64,000 bases of DNA, taken from Leptolyngbya sp. NIES-2104. Lineage in GTDB: Bacteria > Cyanobacteriota > Cyanobacteriia > Leptolyngbyales > Leptolyngbyaceae. The notes beneath the pieces were generated by a model. That model was not told the origin of the DNA and searched no databases. It saw nothing but the letters and a program-made list of their open reading frames with translations. Shown in pieces: positions 1,467 through 63,404 of the stretch. The stretch covers positions 2,418,001-2,482,000 of the forward strand of contig NZ_BBWW01000001.1 in NCBI RefSeq assembly GCF_001485215.1, read 5' to 3'. A program made the position numbers and the translations under genes. The first letter of the stretch is position 1. Each line of letters opens with the position of its first letter.

Positions 1467-3683
1467 ATGCGAAAGCCCCTGTTTAAAGAACGGAAATTTT
1501 GGTTGATCCTCGCCTCTGGAGCCGGAGCGATCGGATTAATTGCGGGTGCATTATTGCCGATCGAGAAACTCAGACAAGTTTCAGAAATGCCATCGGGTGT
1601 AGTGAGTTCAATCCAATCGCTCAATTCCCCTCAGCCGAGTGGCATTGGGACACCTAGCACTGTGATTAGTCCACTGGTGACAAAATCCGCCAACGAACGC
1701 GGAGCCGCACTCAAACAGGTGACGCAAAGTGCAAGTTCGACATTGGAGCGCGATCGTGCTCGTTATTTGTTAGCGGTTGATCTAATTTCTCAGAATCAAG
1801 GCGAAAAAGCATTAGAACAACTCAAAGATTTAGAGAAAAGCTATCCAGTCTTAGCAGCACAGATTGGAGTAAAACGCGCTCAAGCCTATGAGGTGTCAGG
1901 AAAGCAGAAGGAAGCCGCGCAGACTTTACAAGAAGTTGTGAAACAGTTGCCGAAAGAACCTGCGACGGCTGAAGCACTCTTTACTTTAGGAAAAAAAGAT
2001 TCTAAGTTCTGGGATCAAGCATTGCAGCAATTTCCATCGCATCCACGATCGATCGAGATTGCCAGAACGCGCTTAAAACAAAATCCGAAACAGTTTCCGT
2101 TGCTGATGTTGGTGGCGCGATATGGAACGGATAGTGAAGGCTATACCGAATTGCTCGATCGCATTGTTTCACAGTTTAGTAACCAACTAAAACCGGAAGA
2201 CTGGGAAGCGATCGCATTTGGCTACTGGGAAAATCAAGTCTATGACAAAGGCGCGATCGCATATTCTCGTGCGCCTCAAACGTCATTAACCGCTTATCGA
2301 TCGGCTCGTGGCTTGCATCTGAGTGGTAAACCTGGAGCAACAGAGCGCTATCGTCAAATGGTGCAGCAGTTTCCGCAGTCTTCAGAGGCAGGTTTAGCCC
2401 TGACGCGATTAGCAGATTTAGCAGAAACGCCACAAATGGCGATCGCGTATCTCGATCAAGTGATTCAGAATTTCCCCGATCGTGCTCCCGCTGCTTTGGT
2501 TGAAAAGTCGAAAATGCTCGACAAAATGAACAGCGGTAAGACTGCGGCACAGATGCGGCAATTAGTTCTCACTCAGTACGCGAATTCGGATGCTGCGGCT
2601 GAAATGCGCTGGGAATATGCTCAAAAAAGTGCCAAAGCTGGAAACATTAAACTCGCTCGACAATGGGCAGAGCCAATTTTAACCAACAATTCGACGAGTG
2701 AAATCGCGGCTGAGGCAGGCTTCTGGTCGGGTAAATGGGCACAAACGATCGGCAACAATGATCAAGCGGCGAAACTGTTCCAGAAAGTTCTCAGCGATCA
2801 TCCTGAGTCTTATTTTGCTTGGCGATCGGCTTCGATTCTCGGTTGGAATGTGGGCGACTTTAACAGTGTCCGATCGATGAATCCCCAAGTGCAAAAACCG
2901 CTTTCTCGTCCGGAGTTACCTGCGGGATCGCCTGCATTAAAAGAGCTTTACCAATTGGGACAAGAACGCGCGGCTTGGTCACACTGGCAGATCGAATTTC
3001 AGAACCGGGTGAAACCGTCGATCGCAGAACAGTTCACCGATGGCGTGATGCGATTGGGTGTCGGTGACAATCTCGATGCGATTTATATGGTCGGAAGTTT
3101 GCGCGATCGAGACACGCCCGAAGATAAAGCACAATATCAGCAATTGAGAAAAAACATTGGTTACTGGCAGGCGCTTTATCCATTTCCGTTTGTGGAAACG
3201 ATCGAGAATTGGTCACAGCAACGTCAAATCAATCCAATGTTAGTGACGGCATTAATTCGGCAAGAATCGCGGTTTGAACCAAATATTCGATCGAGCGTTG
3301 GAGCCGTGGGACTGATGCAAGTAATGCCCGAAACGGGTCAATACATTGCCAATAACATCAAAGTTAAAGAGTTCAAACTCGCTGATCCTGAAACCAATAT
3401 CAAGTTTGGAACCTGGTATTTGGACTATACCCATGCACAGTACAGCAATAATTCTCTCTTAGCAGTTGCTAGTTACAATGCAGGACCCGGAGCCGTTTCA
3501 GGCTGGTTGAGCAAAGCGAAAACGCAAGATCCGGATGAATTTGTGGAATCAATTCCTTATTCGGAAACGCGAGGCTATGTGAAATCGGTGCTAGGAAACT
3601 ATTGGAACTATCTCCGACTGTACAATCCGGAGATTTCACAGCGCGTGTCTCAAGTGGCAGCAGATCATCCGAAAGGGAACTAA
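1467..3683 (+). CDS. Soluble-type lytic murein transglycosylase (Slt family)
   Basis: Cleaves the MurNAc-GlcNAc bond of peptidoglycan in the periplasm, forming 1,6-anhydro ends. I chose ATG 1467 (MRKPLFKERK, 738 aa) over a TTG nine codons earlier. Residues about 8-30 form a membrane anchor or signal. Residues 60-560 are alpha-helical TPR-like repeats (many EKAL, AAQTL and QFP motifs), matching the Slt70 superhelix. The C-terminal SLT domain carries RQESRF with the catalytic glutamate at residue 600, followed by GAVGLMQVMP and ASYNAGPG. The length fits cyanobacterial Slt70-like proteins. The gene stands alone and converges with the PHP gene downstream. Family assignment is strong; the physiological role (wall turnover or cell division) is inferred. 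Confidence 0.93.
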   Translation: MRKPLFKERKFWLILASGAGAIGLIAGALLPIEKLRQVSEMPSGVVSSIQSLNSPQPSGIGTPSTVISPLVTKSANERGAALKQVTQSASSTLERDRARYLLAVDLISQNQGEKALEQLKDLEKSYPVLAAQIGVKRAQAYEVSGKQKEAAQTLQEVVKQLPKEPATAEALFTLGKKDSKFWDQALQQFPSHPRSIEIARTRLKQNPKQFPLLMLVARYGTDSEGYTELLDRIVSQFSNQLKPEDWEAIAFGYWENQVYDKGAIAYSRAPQTSLTAYRSARGLHLSGKPGATERYRQMVQQFPQSSEAGLALTRLADLAETPQMAIAYLDQVIQNFPDRAPAALVEKSKMLDKMNSGKTAAQMRQLVLTQYANSDAAAEMRWEYAQKSAKAGNIKLARQWAEPILTNNSTSEIAAEAGFWSGKWAQTIGNNDQAAKLFQKVLSDHPESYFAWRSASILGWNVGDFNSVRSMNPQVQKPLSRPELPAGSPALKELYQLGQERAAWSHWQIEFQNRVKPSIAEQFTDGVMRLGVGDNLDAIYMVGSLRDRDTPEDKAQYQQLRKNIGYWQALYPFPFVETIENWSQQRQINPMLVTALIRQESRFEPNIRSSVGAVGLMQVMPETGQYIANNIKVKEFKLADPETNIKFGTWYLDYTHAQYSNNSLLAVASYNAGPGAVSGWLSKAKTQDPDEFVESIPYSETRGYVKSVLGNYWNYLRLYNPEISQRVSQVAADHPKGN

Positions 3684-3684
3684 C

Positions 3685-3713
3685 AAAAAACCCCCGACCA
3701 AATCGTCAGGGGT
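3685..3713 (-). terminator. Rho-independent terminator of the PHP gene
   Basis: Read on the minus strand, a stem of CCCC/GGGG plus GAC/GTC with one mismatch and a 6-nt loop (3691-3712) is followed by six T (3685-3690). It sits 66 nt past the stop of the minus-strand PHP gene and ends transcription just before the opposing slt stop codon. On the plus strand no T-run follows. Confidence 0.75.
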
Positions 3714-3778
3714 GAATCATCAGGGTGCATCTACCATTCTCCTATACGAGAACCCTAGTCCTCGTCCGGAGAAATCTC

Positions 3779-21908: not shown

Positions 21909-22241
21909 ATGACACGTAGAGCGTTAAATCGTATTGCTGCTTATTTGCTTGGAGGCGTTGCTTTTGTCGCCTCTCTCATTTACTTGAGCTATGTTGATCA
22001 GCTTGGGTTTCCTGATGGCTTTATTAGTGAATTAGGATATGCACAAAGAAACCTTGCTTATCTATTCATTGGAATAAGTGTTGTTTTAGGAACCTATTTC
22101 ATCTATTTGGGGGCGATCGCGGCTCGAAAATCGATTGAGAAGAAATTAGCGATCGCTGTTCTCTCCTATCTAATTTGTATCGTCGTTATTGCCGCTCTAA
22201 ATTACTATTACCGCTTACATTTACCGGGTAGTGGTGGTTAA
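21909..22241 (+). CDS. Small membrane protein of unknown function, 110 aa
   Basis: No family recognised. Three hydrophobic helices are evident: about 9-27 (AAYLLGGVAFVASLIYLSY), 49-70 (AYLFIGISVVLGTYFIYLGAI) and 80-98 (AIAVLSYLICIVVIAALNY). The start has GGAG directly upstream (GGAGGATG), so ATG 21909 is well supported. It sits 26 nt after the M48 protease gene on the same strand and may be co-transcribed with it. A role in the envelope alongside the protease is only inferred from position. Confidence 0.7.
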   Translation: MTRRALNRIAAYLLGGVAFVASLIYLSYVDQLGFPDGFISELGYAQRNLAYLFIGISVVLGTYFIYLGAIAARKSIEKKLAIAVLSYLICIVVIAALNYYYRLHLPGSGG

Positions 22242-22630: not shown

Positions 22631-25117
22631 ATGATTCAGCAATTAGACACCCGTTCTCCGCAAGTTGATCTGACAGATTCATCGAGCTTGACTCCATTAC
22701 CTCGTCAGCTCAGTCTGATTGAAACTTGGGGATTCGGTCTAACCGGACTTTTGTTGTGGATGGGAGTTGCACCCGGAACCCAAGCTGAATTGGGCAATCA
22801 AGCGTTATGGGTTTGGATTCCCGGTGCGATCGTCGGTGTGATCATTGTGCTGCAAGTTCGGAGTTTGGGACGAGGATTTCCAGATGTGGCTGGAGGAACG
22901 CCAAACTACGTCACGCATTTATTAAAGGATTATCCGACGCTAACGAGCTATGCTGCGATCGGTTACTTAGTGAGTTGGATCGCTGTTCTTCCTGTGAATG
23001 CGATCATTCTCGCTGACTTGATTCAGACGATTCTTAATCCGTTAGGAATTGTGCTACCTGATATCATTCTACGAATCGGATTCACGGTTCTAGCCTTTAT
23101 TGTTGCTTTTAGTGGTAGCCATGCACTCGGAACACTGCATCTCATCTTCTTACTTCCTGCGGTCGGCTTTTTGCTTGCATTTTGTTTGCAAGGAACTCAT
23201 GCAGTCATCACAACATCCTCTCTGATTGGGTTTACAGATAGCAATGTAACCTTTTCATTCCAAGGATGGGCAAAGTGGTATCTCAATGGAACTTATGCTT
23301 TCTACGCTTGCGAAACGGCATCCGTTTTTGTTGCAGATAGTAAGCGTCCCTGCGGAACATTACAAAGCTTGTTACTTGCAGCAGCACTGATCCCGATCGT
23401 TTATATCGGCGGTTCCTGGATTTTGCTGCATCTAGCGATAGAACCAGGATCGGGTAGTAATACGTTTCTGAATCTACTCTCAGCCGCGAAATCCTTCTGG
23501 GGACAATCTGCTTCGTTTCTGATCACCTTTCTCGTTGTATCAAGTAGCCTTTTATCTTGTGCAACGGCAGTTGCAATCTGTCCACGAATTTTGTATCAAC
23601 TCGCGCACGATCGACAAATCTCACCGATCTTTGGGGTTACTTCCCGTCAAGGAGTCTTCGCGCCTGGTTTACTTTTGACCTTGGTTTTGAGTGTGGCTTG
23701 GTTGATTTGGGGAGATGTTCACCGAATTGTGATGATTACAACAGTCGGTTGGCTAATCTGCTTTATTGTGCTCCATTGGGGACTCTGGCAGCAGCGTGGC
23801 GACTCAGCCGTCCTATTTCCAAGACTGTCACTGGGATTATGCGGACTAGAGATTGTTGTCTTAGTCGTTGGAGGATGTGCTTGGGGACTGCAAGACTTGG
23901 TGATTGGTCTACTGCTCCCGATCGTGATTTTGATGGTCGATCGATTTATCCAACAGTTTTCCTGGACTTTGAAGGTTCCTGAATGGCTCAATCGTTGGTA
24001 TCAGTATCGAGACCGCCAAGATCTTCAAGGCTTTATTGCGCTGCAAGTCTTAGTATTGATCGTATTCATCTGCGGAGCCACGATCGTCAGTTGGTTCAGT
24101 AGTCGCTTAGTGAGCCAAAGCGCCCTAGAATCGAGTGCAAATCTATTAGTTGTCCTCATTCTAGTCCTTTCATTTATTGGAATTGCGATCGCGTGTTGGA
24201 CAATTTTTCCTCAAATCGTCGCCGTGAATGAAGCTCGCAATCAAGCAGAACAATTGTCGAATCATCTGCAACAGACGCTCAAAGAACTCCAGCAAACCCA
24301 ACTGCAAATGGTACAGCAAGAAAAGCTATCGAGTTTAGGGCAATTAGTTGCGGGCGTTGCTCATGAGATCAATAATCCAGTGAACTTTATTCACGGCAAC
24401 CTCGATCATGTGCAGAACTACGCAGACGATTTACTGAACTTGGTGCAACTTTACCAAGCCTACTATCCGAACCCGGCTCCAGAAATTCGAGCAGAGGCAG
24501 AGGATATTGATCTCGACTTTTTGCAAGAAGACTTGATTAAAGTTTTGGATTCAATGAAAGTCGGAACGGATCGGATTCGTGAAATTGTGTTGTCGTTGCG
24601 AAACTTTTCTCGCATGGATGAAGCGGAATTCAAAACGGTTGATCTGCACGAGGGCATTGAAAGCACATTAATGATTCTGCAACATCGTCTCAAAGCGATC
24701 GCTAAACGACCCGCGATCGAAATCATTCGAGACTTTGATCGATTACCCCCAATCGATTGCTACCCTGGACAACTCAATCAAGTCGTGATGAACATTCTGG
24801 CAAATGCGATCGATGCCTTAGAAGAGATGAGCGCGAAGCAAAAAGATTTCGCACCTCAAATTCAAATCCGAACATCAATGATTGACAATCAGTGGGTGAA
24901 GGTTGCGATCGCAGATAATGGTTCAGGTATTCCTGAAACGATTAGAAACCGAATTTTTGATCCGTTTTTCACGACTAAACCTGTAGGCAAAGGAACAGGT
25001 TTAGGGATGTCGATTAGCTATCACATCATTGTTGAAAAACATCAGGGTAAGCTAGAGTGCTTTTCGCATCCTAATCAAGGAACAGAGTTCGTGATTTATT
25101 TACCGCTGCAACAGTAA
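22631..25117 (+). CDS. APC-type permease fused to a histidine kinase
   Basis: An 828-aa sensor protein. Residues about 25-430 are a polytopic region like amino-acid/polyamine permeases of the APC superfamily (starting with [20 protein letters not shown] and about 12 hydrophobic helices). Two further helices (450-525) lead into a coiled coil rich in Gln/Leu ([20 protein letters not shown]) and a kinase core: H-box VAHEINNP with His578, N-box [11 protein letters not shown]1 IADNGSGIP and G2 KGTGLGMS. The design parallels CbrA-type transporter-kinases but with an APC rather than SLC5 module. It likely senses, and perhaps transports, an amino acid or amine. No partner regulator is adjacent. The start is ATG 22631; weaker TTG starts exist upstream. 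Confidence 0.85.
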
Positions 25118-25176: not shown

Positions 25177-26274
25177 TCAATTTCCCGATCGCAATGAGAA
25201 ATCCGAAAAGCTCAACTCATTAATCTTGTTCCACTGATAAACCTGATCGCGAAACTGCTTCCACTGTCCATACACTTGCTTAAACGTATTATTTTTCGCT
25301 GCATTCGCCTCGTACAATTCAAACGAAGCTTTCTGAGCCGCCTGCATAATCTCTTTACTGTATGGAGTCAACTGCGTTCCGCCTGCGACCAGACGTGCGA
25401 TCGCTTCTCGATTTAGCGCATCATATTGCGCCAACATATTCACATTCGCTTCAAAAGCCGCCGTTTTAAGAACTTCCTGATACTCTTTTGGCAACTTCCG
25501 CCAAGCGTTTAAATTAATCTGCGTTTCTAAAGTCGGTCCCGGTTCCCACCAGCCAGGGTAGTAGTAAAACTTCGCGGCTTTATGCAAACCAAGTTTCTCA
25601 TCGTCATAAGGTCCCACCCACTCCGCCGCATCGATCGCGCCTCGATCCAACGCCAAATAAATCTCGCCCCCCGGAAGTACCTGTACATTCACGCCCAGTC
25701 GCGACATCACTTCGCCACCGAGACCCGGAATTCGCATCTTTAAGCCTTTGAGATCCGCGATCGAGTTCACCCGTCGCTTAAACCAGCCGCCCATCTGCAC
25801 CCCAGTATTACCCGCCGGAAAGTTAATGATGCTGAAATCCGAATACAGCTTGTGCATCGCATCCAATCCGCCCCCGTGATACAGCCAAGCATTTTGCTGT
25901 TGAGCATTCAGCCCAAACGGAACCGCACAGCCAAACGCCAACGCTGGATTTTTTCCGGTGTAATAGTAACTCGCGGTATGTCCACATTCGACCGTGCCAT
26001 TCTGCACCGCATCCAAAACTTGCAATCCCGGCACAATTTCCCCGGCTGCAAACGGCTGAATCACAAATCGTCCATCGGTCATTTCTGAAATGCGCCGACA
26101 CACCGTTTCTGCTCCACCGAAAATCGTCTCTAACGATTTGGGCCAACTGGTCGCCATGCGCCATCTCACTGACGGTAAAGCTGTTCCCGCCGTTGCTGCT
26201 CCTCGTTTGCGAATCGTACAAGCCGTTAAAGAGCTTGATGCGATCGCGGCTCCTAATACAAATCTGCGCTTCAT
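25177..26274 (-). CDS. TRAP-type substrate-binding protein (DctP family)
   Basis: Extracytoplasmic solute receptor, 365 aa from ATG 26274. The N-terminus MKRRFVLGAAIASSSLTAC has a twin-arginine pair and a lipobox (LTAC), so it is likely a lipoprotein. DctP-family marks include WRMATSWPKSLETIFGGAE, GRFVIQPFAAGEIVPGLQVLDAVQNGTVECGHT, the MRIPGLGGEVMSRLG helix with a carboxylate-binding Arg, and LDRGAIDAAEWVGPYDD. Relatives bind carboxylates, including pyruvate or lactate-like acids and calcium-2-keto acids. No DctQ or DctM membrane subunit is encoded nearby, so partners lie elsewhere. The neighbouring NYN gene converges in a different frame upstream. Confidence 0.88.
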   Translation of the reverse strand: MKRRFVLGAAIASSSLTACTIRKRGAATAGTALPSVRWRMATSWPKSLETIFGGAETVCRRISEMTDGRFVIQPFAAGEIVPGLQVLDAVQNGTVECGHTASYYYTGKNPALAFGCAVPFGLNAQQQNAWLYHGGGLDAMHKLYSDFSIINFPAGNTGVQMGGWFKRRVNSIADLKGLKMRIPGLGGEVMSRLGVNVQVLPGGEIYLALDRGAIDAAEWVGPYDDEKLGLHKAAKFYYYPGWWEPGPTLETQINLNAWRKLPKEYQEVLKTAAFEANVNMLAQYDALNREAIARLVAGGTQLTPYSKEIMQAAQKASFELYEANAAKNNTFKQVYGQWKQFRDQVYQWNKINELSFSDFSLRSGN

Positions 26275-26326
26275 CTGTGTTGCCCCACTCGTATCGAAGA
26301 TTCTACCGAGCAATGAGGACAGAATT

Positions 26327-26884
26327 TCAATCGCGCTTGTCTTTCCCAAACCGCAAATCATCCAAGCGTTTCTGAGCATCCGGATCGATCGAGTGCATTA
26401 ACAATCGTCCCGCTGATTTTTTTTTCGGTTTCAATTTACTCTGAACCCGCCGCGCCGAAAACTCGACTTCATTCGCCAATTTTTCCGCAGACATCCACTC
26501 TGCACCATATCCCACTACGGTTAATTGCTGAGCGCGATCGCTAGTTGCCACAATCAACCGCTGCTTAAACTTGCGAATGTCATGCCGAAAATCCGCACAA
26601 GTTTTCTCGATATACGTATCTGCCGTCTGTCCAAAATCGGTGTAGCACACATAGAGATGCTGCGTAATCTCCTCGCGATTCGTCGGACAATCTCGATATT
26701 GCGCGTCAAACACAATATGCGTTTCAAAATTCTGGTAGGAGCTAAATCCAATGAGCGCTTCGACTAATTTCCGTCTGGCTTCTTCCAAACCGTCTCGATC
26801 GCGAATCAGTTTCAACTCATGCCAAGCTCCGACTATGTTATAGCCGTCCACCAATAAAAGTGCCTGTGGTGCAGAACGTGGCAT
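26327..26884 (-). CDS. NYN-domain ribonuclease (YacP/Rae1-like)
   Basis: A 185-aa protein of the YacP/NYN family, PIN-like metal-dependent RNases. LLLVDGYNIVGAW near residue 10 carries the first catalytic aspartate; IVFDAQYRD, FTDFGQ-like YTDFGQTADTYIEK and VATSDRAQQ give the remaining acidic residues of the PIN-like site. The Bacillus relative Rae1 cleaves mRNA in the ribosome. A basic C-terminal tail (SKLKPKKKSAGRLL) may bind RNA. ATG 26884 follows a GTG. It reads toward the TRAP gene, whose start is 53 nt past the stop. Confidence 0.85.
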   Translation of the reverse strand: MPRSAPQALLLVDGYNIVGAWHELKLIRDRDGLEEARRKLVEALIGFSSYQNFETHIVFDAQYRDCPTNREEITQHLYVCYTDFGQTADTYIEKTCADFRHDIRKFKQRLIVATSDRAQQLTVVGYGAEWMSAEKLANEVEFSARRVQSKLKPKKKSAGRLLMHSIDPDAQKRLDDLRFGKDKRD

Positions 26885-42672: not shown

Positions 42673-44256
42673 ATGGTGTTAAAAGCATCGTTGAAGCATA
42701 AAACGCAAGTCCGCAGGAAAAAACCTGCACTGCTTAAGTCTTGGGAAGCTCTGGTTCGTACACTGAGTCAGTTAACTCCAAGTTGGCAAATGTCAATTCC
42801 ACTGACAGTCGCGATCGTGGGTCTTTGGAGCTACGCGGCTGTTGCCCAAACCCCGCCCACGGTTGAAAGTGTTGCGACTGCGACTGCGGATCTCAAGGTC
42901 GGTCTAGACACAATGTGGGTAATGATCGCAGGCTTCCTGGTGTTCTTTATGAACGCAGGCTTCTGTATGCTTGAAACCGGGATGTGCCGTCAGAAAAACG
43001 CGGTCAACGTTCTCGCCAAGAACCTAATCGTGTTCGCGCTTTCGACGATCGCATTTTGGTCGATCGGATTCGGTCTCATGTTCAGCGACGGAAATGGCTG
43101 GCTCGGAACCAGTGGCGGATTTTTCCTGACTGGAGCAGACAACAGCCCTGCAAGCTTGACCGACTACAAGGGCATATTCTCATCGCTGAACTGGGCGGGT
43201 GTGCCTCTTGCGGCAAAGTTCTTCTTCCAACTCGTATTTGCTGGAACCGCAGCAACGATCGTGTCTGGTGCAGTGGCAGAACGCATCAAGTTTATCGACT
43301 TCTTGATCTTCAGCTTGCTCTTGGTCGGTATCGCTTACCCAATCACAGGTCACTGGATCTGGGGTGGCGGCTGGTTGTACAAGCTCGGATTCTTTGACTT
43401 TGCAGGTTCGACCGTGGTTCACGCAGTTGGCGGTTGGGCAGCCTTAATGGGTGCAGCCTTCCTCGGTCCGAGAATTGGCAAGTACAACTCAGACAAGTCA
43501 GCGAATGCGATTCCGCCTCACAACATGAGCATCGCAACCTTGGGTGCTTTGATTCTGTGGTTGGGTTGGTTCGGATTTAACCCCGGTTCAACCATGAGCG
43601 TGGGTAACGGTTCGTTGATTGCTCACATTGCATTGACCACGAATACGGGTGGTGCATTTGGTGCGATCGCAGCAACGATCGTGGCTTGGGCAATTCTCGG
43701 TAAGCCTGATTTGTCAATGACCATCAACGGTTTGCTGGCTGGATTAGTCGCAGTGACTGCGGGTTGTGCATTCATTACGGTTCCTTCGGCTGCAATCATT
43801 GGCGCGATCGGTGGCATCCTAGTCGTGTTCGCGGTTGGATTCTTCGACAAGTTGAACATTGATGATCCGGTCGGCGCGATCGCGGTTCACTTGGTGAATG
43901 GTATTTGGGGAACCTTGGCACTCGGTCTATTCGCAGTCGGTCCCAGCGATCAGCCTGGAGCACTTTACGCGGCAGGTCCGTTGGCAGGATTGTTCGCGGG
44001 TGGTGGAATCAACCAGCTTTGGATTCAGTTCATTGGAACGATCACGGTGGGTGGTTTCACGGTGCTCATTTCCAGCATCTTCTGGGTCATTCTGAAGTCT
44101 ACGCTCGGTATCCGTGTGACGGCTGAAGAAGAAATCGAAGGCTTGGATATCGGCGAACATGGCATGGAAGCTTATGCTGGATTCGCGAAGGAAAGCTCGT
44201 TTGGTGCAGCGAGTAGCTATCCGAGCAGCGCTTCTGAAGCAACCAAGTACCAATAA
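42673..44256 (+). CDS. amt: Ammonium transporter, long form
   Basis: A 527-aa Amt/MEP/Rh-family channel that takes up ammonium at the plasma membrane. An N-terminal region of about 65 residues ends in a signal-like helix ([19 protein letters not shown]). Then eleven transmembrane helices follow with the gate and twin-histidine features: [40 protein letters not shown] with His in [11 protein letters not shown], and the second pore His in [21 protein letters not shown] is the family signature. The C-terminal tail ([17 protein letters not shown]) is the regulatory segment that contacts PII. It precedes a second, diverged amt; each has its own terminator. Confidence 0.95.
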
Positions 44257-44588: not shown

Positions 44589-46010
44589 GTGTTGAAGAAA
44601 ACCATGTGGACAGCGCTCACCACGTTAGCGCTCTTAAGTATTCCAGTGATGGGTAGTGCTCTAGCTGATCCGGCAACGGCGGAATCAGCGAAAGCGGCAG
44701 CGGATCAAGCAACAATTCAAGGCGATACGGCGTGGATGCTTGTATCAGCGGCGTTGGTGTTGTTGATGACTCCGGGTTTAGCATTCTTTTATGGTGGATT
44801 TGTTCGATCGAGAAATGTCCTCAATACGATGATGATGAGCTTCATCCTCATGGGAATTGTCGGCGTATCTTGGATTCTCTGGGGTTATAGCCTTTCGTTT
44901 GCGCCAGGAACTCCGTTTATCGGTGGCTTGCAGTGGCTATTTCTAAACGGGGTTGGACTAGAAACGACCGATTACCTAAAAGGGAGTCAGCCCGATGCAG
45001 TCGTTTCTTATGCAGCAACGATCCCCCACCAGTTGTTTATGATCTATCAAGCGATGTTTGCGATCATCACACCTGCATTGATTTCGGGTGCGATCGTGGA
45101 ACGGATGAGCTTTAAGGCATACTTCTGGTTTATCGTGCTGTGGTCGAGCATTCTCTATCCAATTTTTGCTCATATGGTTTGGGCGAAAGGCGGATTCTTG
45201 GGACTGTATGGCGGTTTGGGTGCGTTGGACTTTGCAGGCGGAACCGTGGTTCACATCAGTTCGGGTGTGTCGGCACTGGTTGCGGCTTGGGTACTGGGCG
45301 CTCGGAAGACTTATCCCAGTCAACCTGCTGCACCGCATAACGTGCCCTACATTCTGTTAGGTGCGGGCTTGCTGTGGTTTGGTTGGTTTGGGTTCAACGG
45401 TGGAAGCGCATTAGCATCGGGAGCTTTGGCAACGGTTGCATTCGTGACAACGACGACCTCTGCTTCAGCAGCAGCTTTGATGTGGGTGATTTTGGAATGG
45501 GTCTTGCGCGGTAAACCGACTGCGGTTGGAATTGCGACAGGCGCGGTTGCGGGATTAGTGGGGATTACACCCGCAGCGGGATTCGTGACTCCGGTGGCAG
45601 CGATTCTGATTGGTGCAATTACAGCGACAGCTTGTTTCTTTGCAGTGAGCTTGAAGGCGAAACTTCAGTTTGATGATTCGCTCGATACGTTCCCGGTTCA
45701 TGGTGTGGGCGGAACGGTTGGCGCAATTATTACGGGTATTTTCGCCACGAAAACTGTCAATGCTGCGGGCGCAGATGGTTTACTGTACGGCAATCCGAGC
45801 CAGGTAATTACACAGATCGAAGCGGTTGCGATTACTTATGTGATTGCAGCGATCGGAACGTATGTGATTCTGAAAGTTCTGCAAGCGGTGTTTGGAACGC
45901 TGCGAGTTGATCCGGATGCGGAATATCAAGGCGTTGACGTGAACGAACACGGCGAGGAAGGCTACGGCGAAGAGCTTGGCTCTGCCTTTACGATGAGCCG
46001 AGTCGAATAA
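44589..46010 (+). CDS. amt: Ammonium transporter, second paralogue
   Basis: A 473-aa Amt protein. The GTG at 44589 gives a signal peptide MLKKTMWTALTTLALLSIPV ending near ALAD. The channel core has GDTAWMLVSAALVLLMTPGL then AFFYGGFVRSRNVL, pore His in GTVVHISSGVSALVAAWVLG and the second in FPVHGVGGTVGA, plus GWFGFNGGSALA. The YGGFVRS, HNVPY and TPAAGFV wording is the classical AmtB type, unlike the first gene, so the two are not recent duplicates. The tail EYQGVDVNEHGEEGY is the PII-binding segment. An intergenic region of about 330 bases separates it from the first gene; nitrogen control is expected but I saw no sure NtcA box. Confidence 0.96.
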   Translation: MLKKTMWTALTTLALLSIPVMGSALADPATAESAKAAADQATIQGDTAWMLVSAALVLLMTPGLAFFYGGFVRSRNVLNTMMMSFILMGIVGVSWILWGYSLSFAPGTPFIGGLQWLFLNGVGLETTDYLKGSQPDAVVSYAATIPHQLFMIYQAMFAIITPALISGAIVERMSFKAYFWFIVLWSSILYPIFAHMVWAKGGFLGLYGGLGALDFAGGTVVHISSGVSALVAAWVLGARKTYPSQPAAPHNVPYILLGAGLLWFGWFGFNGGSALASGALATVAFVTTTTSASAAALMWVILEWVLRGKPTAVGIATGAVAGLVGITPAAGFVTPVAAILIGAITATACFFAVSLKAKLQFDDSLDTFPVHGVGGTVGAIITGIFATKTVNAAGADGLLYGNPSQVITQIEAVAITYVIAAIGTYVILKVLQAVFGTLRVDPDAEYQGVDVNEHGEEGYGEELGSAFTMSRVE

Positions 46011-61536: not shown

Positions 61537-62724
61537 TTATTGCAGCTTACTGCGGGGTGCTTTCAATGGCAATTCGATCGTAAAAGTTGATCCCGCTCCA
61601 GGTTGACTGCTCACCATCACTTGTCCTTGATGTGCCTGAACAATTTGCTGCACGATCGCTAACCCTAATCCAAATCCTCCGGTTTGTTTCGATCGAGCAG
61701 TATCCACTCGATAAAAGCGGTCGAAGATATGCGGCAAATCTTCCGAAGGAATGCCGATTCCCGTATCAATTACCCGAATGATTGCGGCTTGCTTGCTGAT
61801 CAGTTCAATTCGGACGGTTCCTTCGATGGGCGTGTACTTAACCGCATTGCTCAAAAGATTTACGATCGCTTGTTTGATTAGTTCTGGATCGGCTTCGATC
61901 TGTACTGGATAATCCGGCAAGGACAAAGTAAAAGTGCGATCGTCTGGATAGTCTAATCCTTGAATCAATTTCACTAAATCAATTGTTTGAAACCGAGCAC
62001 GATCGAGTTCTTCATGCCGAGCTAACCACAGTAAATTCGTCACTAACGCACTCATCGATTTTGCAATGTCTACAATCCGCTCTAGACGATCGTGCTGTTC
62101 TTGTTGATCTTCTGGCGGCATCAATCCAACTTGAGCATTGCTTAAAACGGCGGAGATTGGTGCTCGTAATTCATGAGAAGCATCGGCTGTAAACCTTTGG
62201 AGTTGGGCATAAGCACGTCTTGAAGGCTGCATTGCGACTCCGCCCAAAATCCAGCCCGCTACGCCAATGAGTGCGATCGCGCTGGGTACTCCGATTAGTA
62301 GAAAATATCTCACCTGATCTAAGCTCTGCTGCAATGGTGTGAGCGGTGTCGCAACCTGCAAATAGCCGATCGTTTGATTCTGTCGCTGAATCGGTAAGGT
62401 TAGCTGTCTTAAGCCGTCGATTGATTCAAAGCCGATCGTTCCGACGAGATAATTTGCGCCAGGTGAACCAATATATTTGATCCGTTGTCGATCGACGCGA
62501 TACCAGCGAGCGTAAGTTAAATCGATCGGAATCTGCTGCATCACACCCGGAATCGCTGGCTGAACCCCGATGAGAATTCGACTGCGACGGTAAAGCAGAT
62601 CATCAAAATTCCGCAGTTGAGTCTGCACAATGAACCCGTAACCGACTCCTGCAAATGCAAGCAAAATTCCGCCCATCGAAGCTGCAAACCAATAGGCTAA
62701 ATTCCGCCGACTCCGATCGAACAC
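61537..62724 (-). CDS. Two-component sensor histidine kinase (RppB/NrsS-like)
   Basis: A 395-aa transmembrane kinase from GTG 62724, which lies 5 nt past the regulator's stop and behind AGTAGGAACG. Two membrane helices (near 16-38 and 165-190) flank a periplasmic sensor loop with [14 protein letters not shown] close to the second helix. The kinase core has [18 protein letters not shown] with the phospho-His, [16 protein letters not shown] (N-box), [20 protein letters not shown] (G1) and [15 protein letters not shown] (G2). Partner of the adjacent OmpR-type regulator. RppAB/NrsRS-type signals (redox, nickel) are family knowledge, not shown here. Confidence 0.9.
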
Positions 62725-62729
62725 CGTTC

Positions 62730-63404
62730 CTACTCCACTGCGTTCAAGCGATACCCAATCCCGTACACTGTTTCGAGCCAATCTTTCGCATTCACCGCTT
62801 CTAATCGTTGCCGCAATCGTCGAACTAACGTGGTGACAGCATTACTTTCGGGTTCACTACCCCAACCCCAGAGCGCTTGTTCAATCTGGTCATGAGAAAG
62901 CACCTGACGCGGATGGCGCATGAGAAATTCCATCAGTTGAAATTCGCGCCCAGACAGTTGAATCGTGGCTTGATTGCGCTCGATCGTTAAATGAGTCAGA
63001 TGCAACTGTAAGCTTCCTAACTGTAGCGTTTCCCCCTGCCATAACGGTGAGCGTCGTCCTAACGCTCTCACTCGTGCAAGGAGTTCCACAATATCGATCG
63101 GCTTGACTAAATAATCATCCGCACCCGCATCGAGTCCCGTAACTTTATCGAAGGTGGTGTCTTTTGCCGTCAGCATCAACACCGGAGCCGTTTTTCCGGC
63201 TTGTCGATATCTTTGACAGACCGCAACGCCGCTGAGTTTGGGTAACATCCAATCGAGAATCAGCAAATCATACGCTTTCGTGGTCGTTAGCCATAAAGCC
63301 GTTTCCCCATCTTCGACCCCATCGACCACGTGACCCGCTTTCATTAAGGCGGACTGGATCGGTTCTAGCTGGGCTGTATCGTCCTCGGCAAACAGGATCA
63401 GCAT
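62730..63404 (-). CDS. OmpR-family response regulator (RppA/NrsR-like)
   Basis: A 224-aa regulator. Receiver domain with acidic pocket AEDD, phospho-acceptor Asp51 in [13 protein letters not shown] and Lys in DDYLVKPID. The winged-helix DNA-binding domain (residues 130-222: [40 protein letters not shown] and VYGIGYRL) is OmpR-type. It begins 3 nt after the pentapeptide gene's stop and the kinase follows, making one operon. RppA-like regulators control photosynthesis or metal genes in Synechocystis; the regulon here is unknown. Confidence 0.92.

Follow-up and report, generated by a model that had tools for sequence, protein, structure and literature searches.

The DNA analyzed here, a stretch of 64,000 nucleotides from Leptolyngbya sp. 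NIES-2104 that we call the window throughout, contains a forward-strand frame that opens with ATG at 22631, closes with a stop codon ending at 25117, and encodes 828 amino acids (aa) without interruption. An earlier note on this DNA had read the product as an APC-type transporter body of about 12 helices followed by two more helices, a coiled coil, and a kinase core, and the open frame, Pfam, and hydropathy agree on that layout (Table 1). The domain search for an APC plus HATPase architecture that it proposed placed AA_permease (PF00324) at residues 36 to 378 (31.8 bits, above the cutoff of 24.6) and HATPase_c at residues 714 to 827 (86.5 bits) in one chain; HisKA matched residues 569 to 596 with 25.2 bits, slightly below its cutoff of 26.9. 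All of the kinase motifs were found, namely, HEINNP with the phospho-acceptor H578, the N-box, DNGSGI, FDPF, and GTGLGM. The window protein is confirmed as a histidine kinase to which a transporter body of APC descent is fused. It has no Pfam match to the sodium:solute symporter or Amt families at E ≤ 1, and this result, together with the AA_permease match, bears out the distinction drawn earlier between this module and the SLC5 module of CbrA.

Table 1. Features of the fusion gene, in window coordinates
Feature	Position	Strand	Basis
Membrane sensor histidine kinase, whole gene, 828 aa	22631..25117	+	Open frame, Pfam, relatives
APC-derived body, TM1-TM12, residues 22-441	22694..23953	+	Pfam AA_permease, hhalign, hydropathy
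GLLLW, residues 39-43	22745..22759	+	Two alignments; register uncertain by 1-2 residues
Extra hairpin TM13-TM14, residues 468-523, ending in conserved ACW	24032..24199	+	Hydropathy; W523
Putative cytoplasmic coiled-coil (signaling-helix) linker, residues 524-565	24200..24325	+	Heptad-only W523-H578 spacing in directly linked relatives
DHp (HisKA), residues 566-690; H578 at 24362-24364	24326..24700	+	Pfam HisKA below cutoff, HEINNP
HATPase_c catalytic domain, residues 714-827	24770..25111	+	Pfam 86.5 bits; N, G1, F, G2 boxes

Mean hydropathy over 64 aligned members of a set of 84 module proteins (see below) resolved 14 membrane helices, i.e., 12 plus 2. In the same 64 proteins, the loops on the presumed cytoplasmic side carry on average 2.8, 4.0, 0.9, 2.5, 2.8, 2.9, and 4.6 Lys/Arg residues and those on the opposite side carry 0.2, 0.5, 1.1, 1.3, 0.0, 0.2, and 1.4. 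As the presumed cytoplasmic loops are the more Lys/Arg rich, with TM4-5 as the single weak loop in the pattern, we read both the N terminus and the kinase as cytoplasmic. The module as a whole spans some 520 residues, from about residue 22 to an "ACWTxxPQ...AR" stretch at residues 521 to 536, in which W523 is invariant (64/64). AlphaFold models of the full-length protein and of the membrane module, each built with six input sequences of which five were 68 to 75% identical to the window protein, reached pLDDT values of only 43.2 and 37.9, and both were discarded.

The earlier note had also named positions 24150 to 24300, corresponding to residues 507 to 557 in helix 14 and the linker, as a zone where a frameshift or assembly junction might have created the fusion. 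A profile scan of 386 genomes of the phylum, with at most three candidates scored per genome, recovered at least 44 places at E < 1e-200, each in an unbroken frame of 822 to 1,194 aa; the other 19 rows are fragments, decayed copies, or weak partial matches (E of 3e-9 to 1e-5 in frames of 472 to 638 aa), the last of which we read as ordinary permeases. Among the 84 module proteins, the window protein included, 82 run past the junction into a signaling output domain, and the two truncated ones lie close to a contig end (L058) or have the kinase cut by a frame break (L062). Because so many proteins from independent genomes continue in frame through the join, the fusion is no product of a frameshift, chimera, or assembly junction, an explanation to which we assign next to no probability.

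Distribution and signaling outputs of the module

With the first 542 residues as the query, 73 of the 388 class genomes proved to contain a relative (65 of the 334 of good quality), and these carriers are distributed over 47 of 160 genera. Two of the seven other genomes of the same genus have the module, and carriers at 68 to 74% identity include Phormidesmis priestleyi BC1401, FACHB-63, and Leptolyngbyaceae and Microcoleus assemblies. Hence, the fusion is present in related genomes, though patchily, and the contrary possibility raised previously is refuted. We saw the module only in cyanobacteria, the scans being of Cyanobacteriota genomes; no relative was found on viral contigs or plasmids, and no intact stand-alone module occurs among the matches listed in the class and phylum scans. 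The working set was assembled from 80 fetched regions and five named loci, which yielded 87 frames; four named loci that duplicated fetched ones were dropped to leave 83, to which the window protein was added. The class-scan places left unextracted are stop-containing frames, fragments at or away from contig ends, and a single further full-length match (G243:C279, a 953-aa frame). Decayed or fragmentary copies with internal stops or in short pieces were observed at G125:C55, G374:C3, G246:C1, G181:C1, G568:C21, and G630:C1, a pattern that suggests repeated loss of the module.

The outputs of the 84 proteins are a kinase core of the window type in 67, a kinase with a fused receiver in 9, another HisKA type in 3, and GGDEF-EAL domains in 3, with the 2 truncated proteins making up the rest; the labels of 17 of the 84 lean partly on motifs. 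Two of the 82 labeled members, L095 and L121, lie close to contig ends and terminate ahead of the last ATPase motifs, and in seven further members one ATPase box is unmatched by the strict motif. Pfam searches of 47 of the 84 members detected HisKA in 44, HATPase in 43, PAS in 32, AA_permease in 28, Response_reg in 7, AA_permease_2 in 6, GAF in 3, GGDEF in 2, and EAL in 2, where the two permease families were counted at E ≤ 0.01 and match more weakly than in the window protein; one module searched in isolation matched no Pfam family at E ≤ 0.001. The GGDEF-EAL proteins (L100, L110, and L115) contain the motifs of both domains, with EAL at 254 to 255 bits, GGDEF at 151 to 155 bits, and an AA_permease match N terminal to both. 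Domain content thus shows the module to be an exchangeable input ahead of plain kinases, hybrid kinases, and GGDEF-EAL proteins. An output to gene expression, as the earlier note envisaged, is accordingly too narrow for the family, since hybrid kinases and GGDEF-EAL enzymes are among the outputs of the same module.

Exchange is visible from the kinase side as well. The window genome encodes 13 other kinases with the HEINNP-type core (E < 1e-80; 51 to 62% identity), and 11 of the 13 core alignments start at residues 529 to 543, i.e., at the module boundary; on reading the translations, the N-terminal parts of seven of these kinases resemble GAF, PAS, or cache inputs. A quick IQ-TREE phylogeny of the 84 modules, of which 82 were labeled, requires seven or more changes among the four output types, against a minimum possible of 3 and a shuffled mean of 14.6. 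For the hybrid type, four changes are forced by the starred branches alone, and the GGDEF-EAL clade has one origin and is placed next to a hybrid kinase with full support. As several output types are found on one membrane unit, that unit is best read as a transporter-derived sensor. Module-kinase genes also occur in tandem: at L069 (5488 to 14751), three copies are followed by a 123-aa CheY-like regulator and a REC-HK gene.

Permease ancestry and the putative binding site

In hhalign, the module aligned with 15 ordinary cyanobacterial APC permeases over 384 columns (Prob 98.4, E = 1.1e-14); these were chosen from 27 extracted frames, the 12 omitted being near-copies, frames with wrong or late starts, one in the wrong frame, or more-divergent sequences. 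When the module profile was searched against PDB sequences, one permease was recovered, LysP (9eyd; E = 3.4e-6). Three candidates for the closest stand-alone kin were tried and rejected, namely, two permease groups without a GxG motif (Prob 13 and 2.4) and Escherichia coli GabP (Prob 31); with one or two sequences each, these comparisons are weak, and only the 15-sequence set is convincing. The module therefore shares homology, a 12-helix core, and a cytoplasmic N terminus with the AA_permease and AA_permease_2 permeases and differs from them in having two more helices, fused signaling domains, and no GxG in TM1.

The TM1 motif GxG[IV][FY] characterizes many APC permeases without being universal in the superfamily. 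In helix 1 of the module proteins, GxG[VIAL][FYW] occurs in 0 of 84. Ordinary PF13520 frames from related genomes have GxG in 22 of 29 (30 loci were taken, one yielding no frame), and one of the seven lacking it is cut short; the proportion in the selected hhalign set, 12 of 15, is biased by the selection relative to this recount. GLLLW stands about where GxG is expected, and although the two alignments differ by 1 to 2 residues, neither register gives GxG. The absence is a mark of the family but no proof of transport loss, because some ordinary permeases also lack the motif. Other positions are strongly kept among the 64 aligned proteins, including W43 (60/64) in helix 1, E228 (63/64) in TM6, and W213 (64/64), K215 (58/64), W216 (62/64), D236 (61/64), and P240 (64/64), and at a TM5 site where the aligned permease has a charge, nearly all module proteins have Ala beside Pro. 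Among eight clade members, residues 22 to 378 match the kinase approximately in conservation (73 to 81% versus 64 to 78% identity), with TM11-TM14 lower at 61 to 68%; in five more-distant relatives, the DHp is 67 to 81% identical versus 51 to 67% for the module. The putative binding site may thus be under selection for something unlike ordinary amino acid transport, and the earlier proposal that amino acid or amine availability is the input is not borne out by the helix 1 counts, nor did any evidence for a substrate emerge from the analysis.

These observations bear on two other readings of the membrane part. The module might be a transceptor like CbrA, still carrying a substrate, with transport turnover signaling to the kinase; the strong conservation of the APC body in the clade, the retention of E228, and the ordinary permeases that do without GxG all speak for it, as does the histidine uptake by the SLC5 domain of CbrA described in passages of PMC13022988. 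Yet, GxG is missing from every module protein, the charged TM5 position is replaced, and no intact stand-alone copy is among the matches listed, so that we regard active transport as possible but clearly the less favored option. Rather unlikely, in our estimate, is that the APC fold serves as a mere scaffold for sensing something other than a solute, such as membrane tension or lipid state, an ion gradient, or a partner protein. The conserved aromatic residues W43, W213, and W216 and the missing GxG would suit such a role, and cyanobacterial membranes do maintain light-driven gradients; the conserved charges K215 and E228 at TM6, however, look more like a binding site.

Linker phase and the proposed signaling route

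For 32 proteins whose kinase directly follows the module, we determined how far the catalytic histidine lies from the CWT tryptophan (W523 in the window protein). In the 27 HEINNP kinases the distance is 48 residues in 14, 55 in 11 (the window protein among them), and 62 in 2; in the five HELRTP kinases it is 57 in 4 and 64 in 1, so that within both types the differences are exact steps of seven. As a control, 48 kinases with inserted domains fill all seven residue classes modulo 7 (10, 9, 9, 7, 6, 5, and 2 cases), and other spacings within the same 27 HEINNP proteins are not heptad stepped (92, 93, 94, 96, 98, 100, and 103 for one; 42 to 72 for another). With a PAS-type insert, the looser measure from the D-I/V/L-T motif to the histidine is shorter than 100 residues in 38 cases, of which 24 are at 50, 57, or 64 and 14 at 47, 59, or 75. 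Because the length classes sit in few lineages, the argument depends on some four independent changes of length; L075 and L105, in far-apart lineages of the tree, arrived at 62 separately. By an informal estimate of our own, the chance that about four changes are all multiples of seven is of the order of 1 in 2,400. The review PMC6798134 presents the heptad dependence of the engineered kinase YF1 on the length of its linker as experimental evidence that the signal travels along a continuous coiled coil. The heptad-only spacing fits such a continuous signaling coiled coil, through which the kinase is most likely under the control of the module, and it is the strongest evidence here for a mechanical coupling that would join the two.

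Judged from these sequence features, the window protein is probably a membrane sensor kinase with a repurposed APC permease as its input, which would signal via the hairpin and coiled coil. The ligand, probably small, would bind near TM1/TM6, whose residues appear to be family conserved yet unlike those of common amino acid permeases; its binding to the 12-helix body, or else occlusion or alternating access there, would be relayed to the TM13-TM14 hairpin. From there, an unbroken coiled coil in fixed rotational phase with the DHp helix, as the heptad steps suggest, would alter autophosphorylation of H578, for which the intact catalytic motifs speak, and the phosphate would go to a response regulator encoded elsewhere. 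Weighing against this reading are the small number of independent length changes, the 14 unphased spacings in kinases with a PAS-type insert, and the greater conservation of the DHp relative to the module outside the window clade. For the family, we hold as evenly balanced the broader proposal of a previously undescribed 14-helix, APC-derived sensory module of cyanobacteria that lost transport and came to serve as a plug-in receptor for kinases, phosphorelays, and cyclic di-GMP (c-di-GMP) enzymes via a heptad-phased coiled coil. That the flow instead runs in reverse, with the kinase domain regulating the transporter, would be compatible with the presence of both in a single chain, but it is very improbable given the GGDEF-EAL and hybrid-kinase outputs on the same module and a heptad-phased linker that resembles sensor-to-kinase coupling.

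Several known systems are comparable. In the SLC5-STAC kinases CbrA, CrbS, and RpuS, a transporter body likewise lies N terminal to a histidine kinase; according to passages of PMC13022988, which term CbrA a rare transceptor, its SLC5 body of 13 helices is joined to the kinase by a STAC domain. The window protein differs from it in having an APC-type body and 14 helices, and the stretch from TM14 to the DHp core, only about 42 residues long, leaves no room for a STAC domain, for which there was likewise no match at E ≤ 1 in the Pfam copy searched, which may not include STAC. Closer in linkage is Ks-Amt5, in which, as parts of PMC5764959 report, an Amt module is joined directly to the kinase without PAS, HAMP, or STAC and reads ammonium via a binding site that assimilatory Amt proteins do not have. 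Both are transporter modules recruited as sensors with a direct kinase link; Ks-Amt5, as portrayed there, is one characterized protein with the Amt fold, whereas the present module is APC derived and swapped among outputs. In the titles and abstract openings listed by the searches, a scope outside which the 2015 STAC paper falls, we found no description of an APC-kinase fusion in cyanobacteria, and the words "permease" and "transporter" are absent from the main texts of two-component censuses of thermophilic cyanobacteria (PMC9953108) and archaea (PMC5847659). Sections of a 2024 paper (PMC11109136) state that strictly defined membrane transceptors had previously been reported from eukaryotes only.

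The fusion is real and belongs with the transporter-derived sensor kinases, an already known kind, as an APC-derived variant. Multihelix sensor domains of the MASE, MHYT, and 7TMR types are mobile membrane inputs common to kinases and GGDEF/EAL proteins; none of them is known to derive from a 12-helix transporter. Bacterial receptors built from whole transporters are rarely published, and the module family offers dozens of natural variants with differing outputs and a natural series of linker lengths, so that transporter-to-receptor conversion and the activation of kinases or cyclases by a permease fold can be asked about directly. The module further points to an unread input into the large orphan-kinase networks of cyanobacteria, c-di-GMP control included; the window genome itself has at least 150 scored receiver domains.

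Gene neighborhoods and candidate partners

Consistent with the earlier observation that no response regulator is adjacent, none of the 150 receiver domains scored among 178 candidates in the genome lies within 37 kb of the gene, the nearest being about 38 kb off at 63066 to 63398 of the window. Co-occurring regulators, which the note had suggested locating across genomes, exist for part of the family: a receiver-bearing gene directly follows on the same strand in 11 of the 79 members whose next frame is in the fetched stretch. The 11 comprise every one of the 9 hybrids, for 7 of which the following gene is of REC-HK type, as well as two plain kinases ahead of a CheY-like protein (123 or 125 aa). 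In the window clade itself, no conserved neighbor gene was found; the sister loci L053 and L054 have one neighbor in common, and other matches are distant and include ABC-transporter ATP-binding proteins. At L050, from the genus of the window, two receiver genes lie 1.0 to 1.6 kb upstream of the module kinase and are a possible lead to the partner, and at L048 a kinase gene lies at 1.1 kb; neither arrangement recurs at the other clade loci.

Near the gene, a 110-aa frame at 21909 to 22241, encoding a small upstream membrane protein, was considered as a CbrX counterpart and rejected, being unmatched among the clade neighbors. The same lack of a match applies to a TRAP-type substrate-binding-like protein at 25177 to 26379 on the reverse strand, convergent with the kinase. 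NtcA boxes (GTAN8TAC) number 4 in the window versus 3.5 expected, with none close to the gene, and the promoter and terminator scans gave 3 and 3 sites versus 4.2 and 2.6 in shuffles. Elsewhere in the window, a response regulator and histidine kinase pair that is unlinked to the module kinase is encoded at 61537 to 63404 (reverse strand), the nitrogen-stress-induced small RNA NsiR1 was recognized at 3683 to 3736 (reverse strand; 53 bits), and two tandem forward-strand genes at 42673 to 44256 and 44589 to 46010 appear ammonium-transporter-like on reading their translations.
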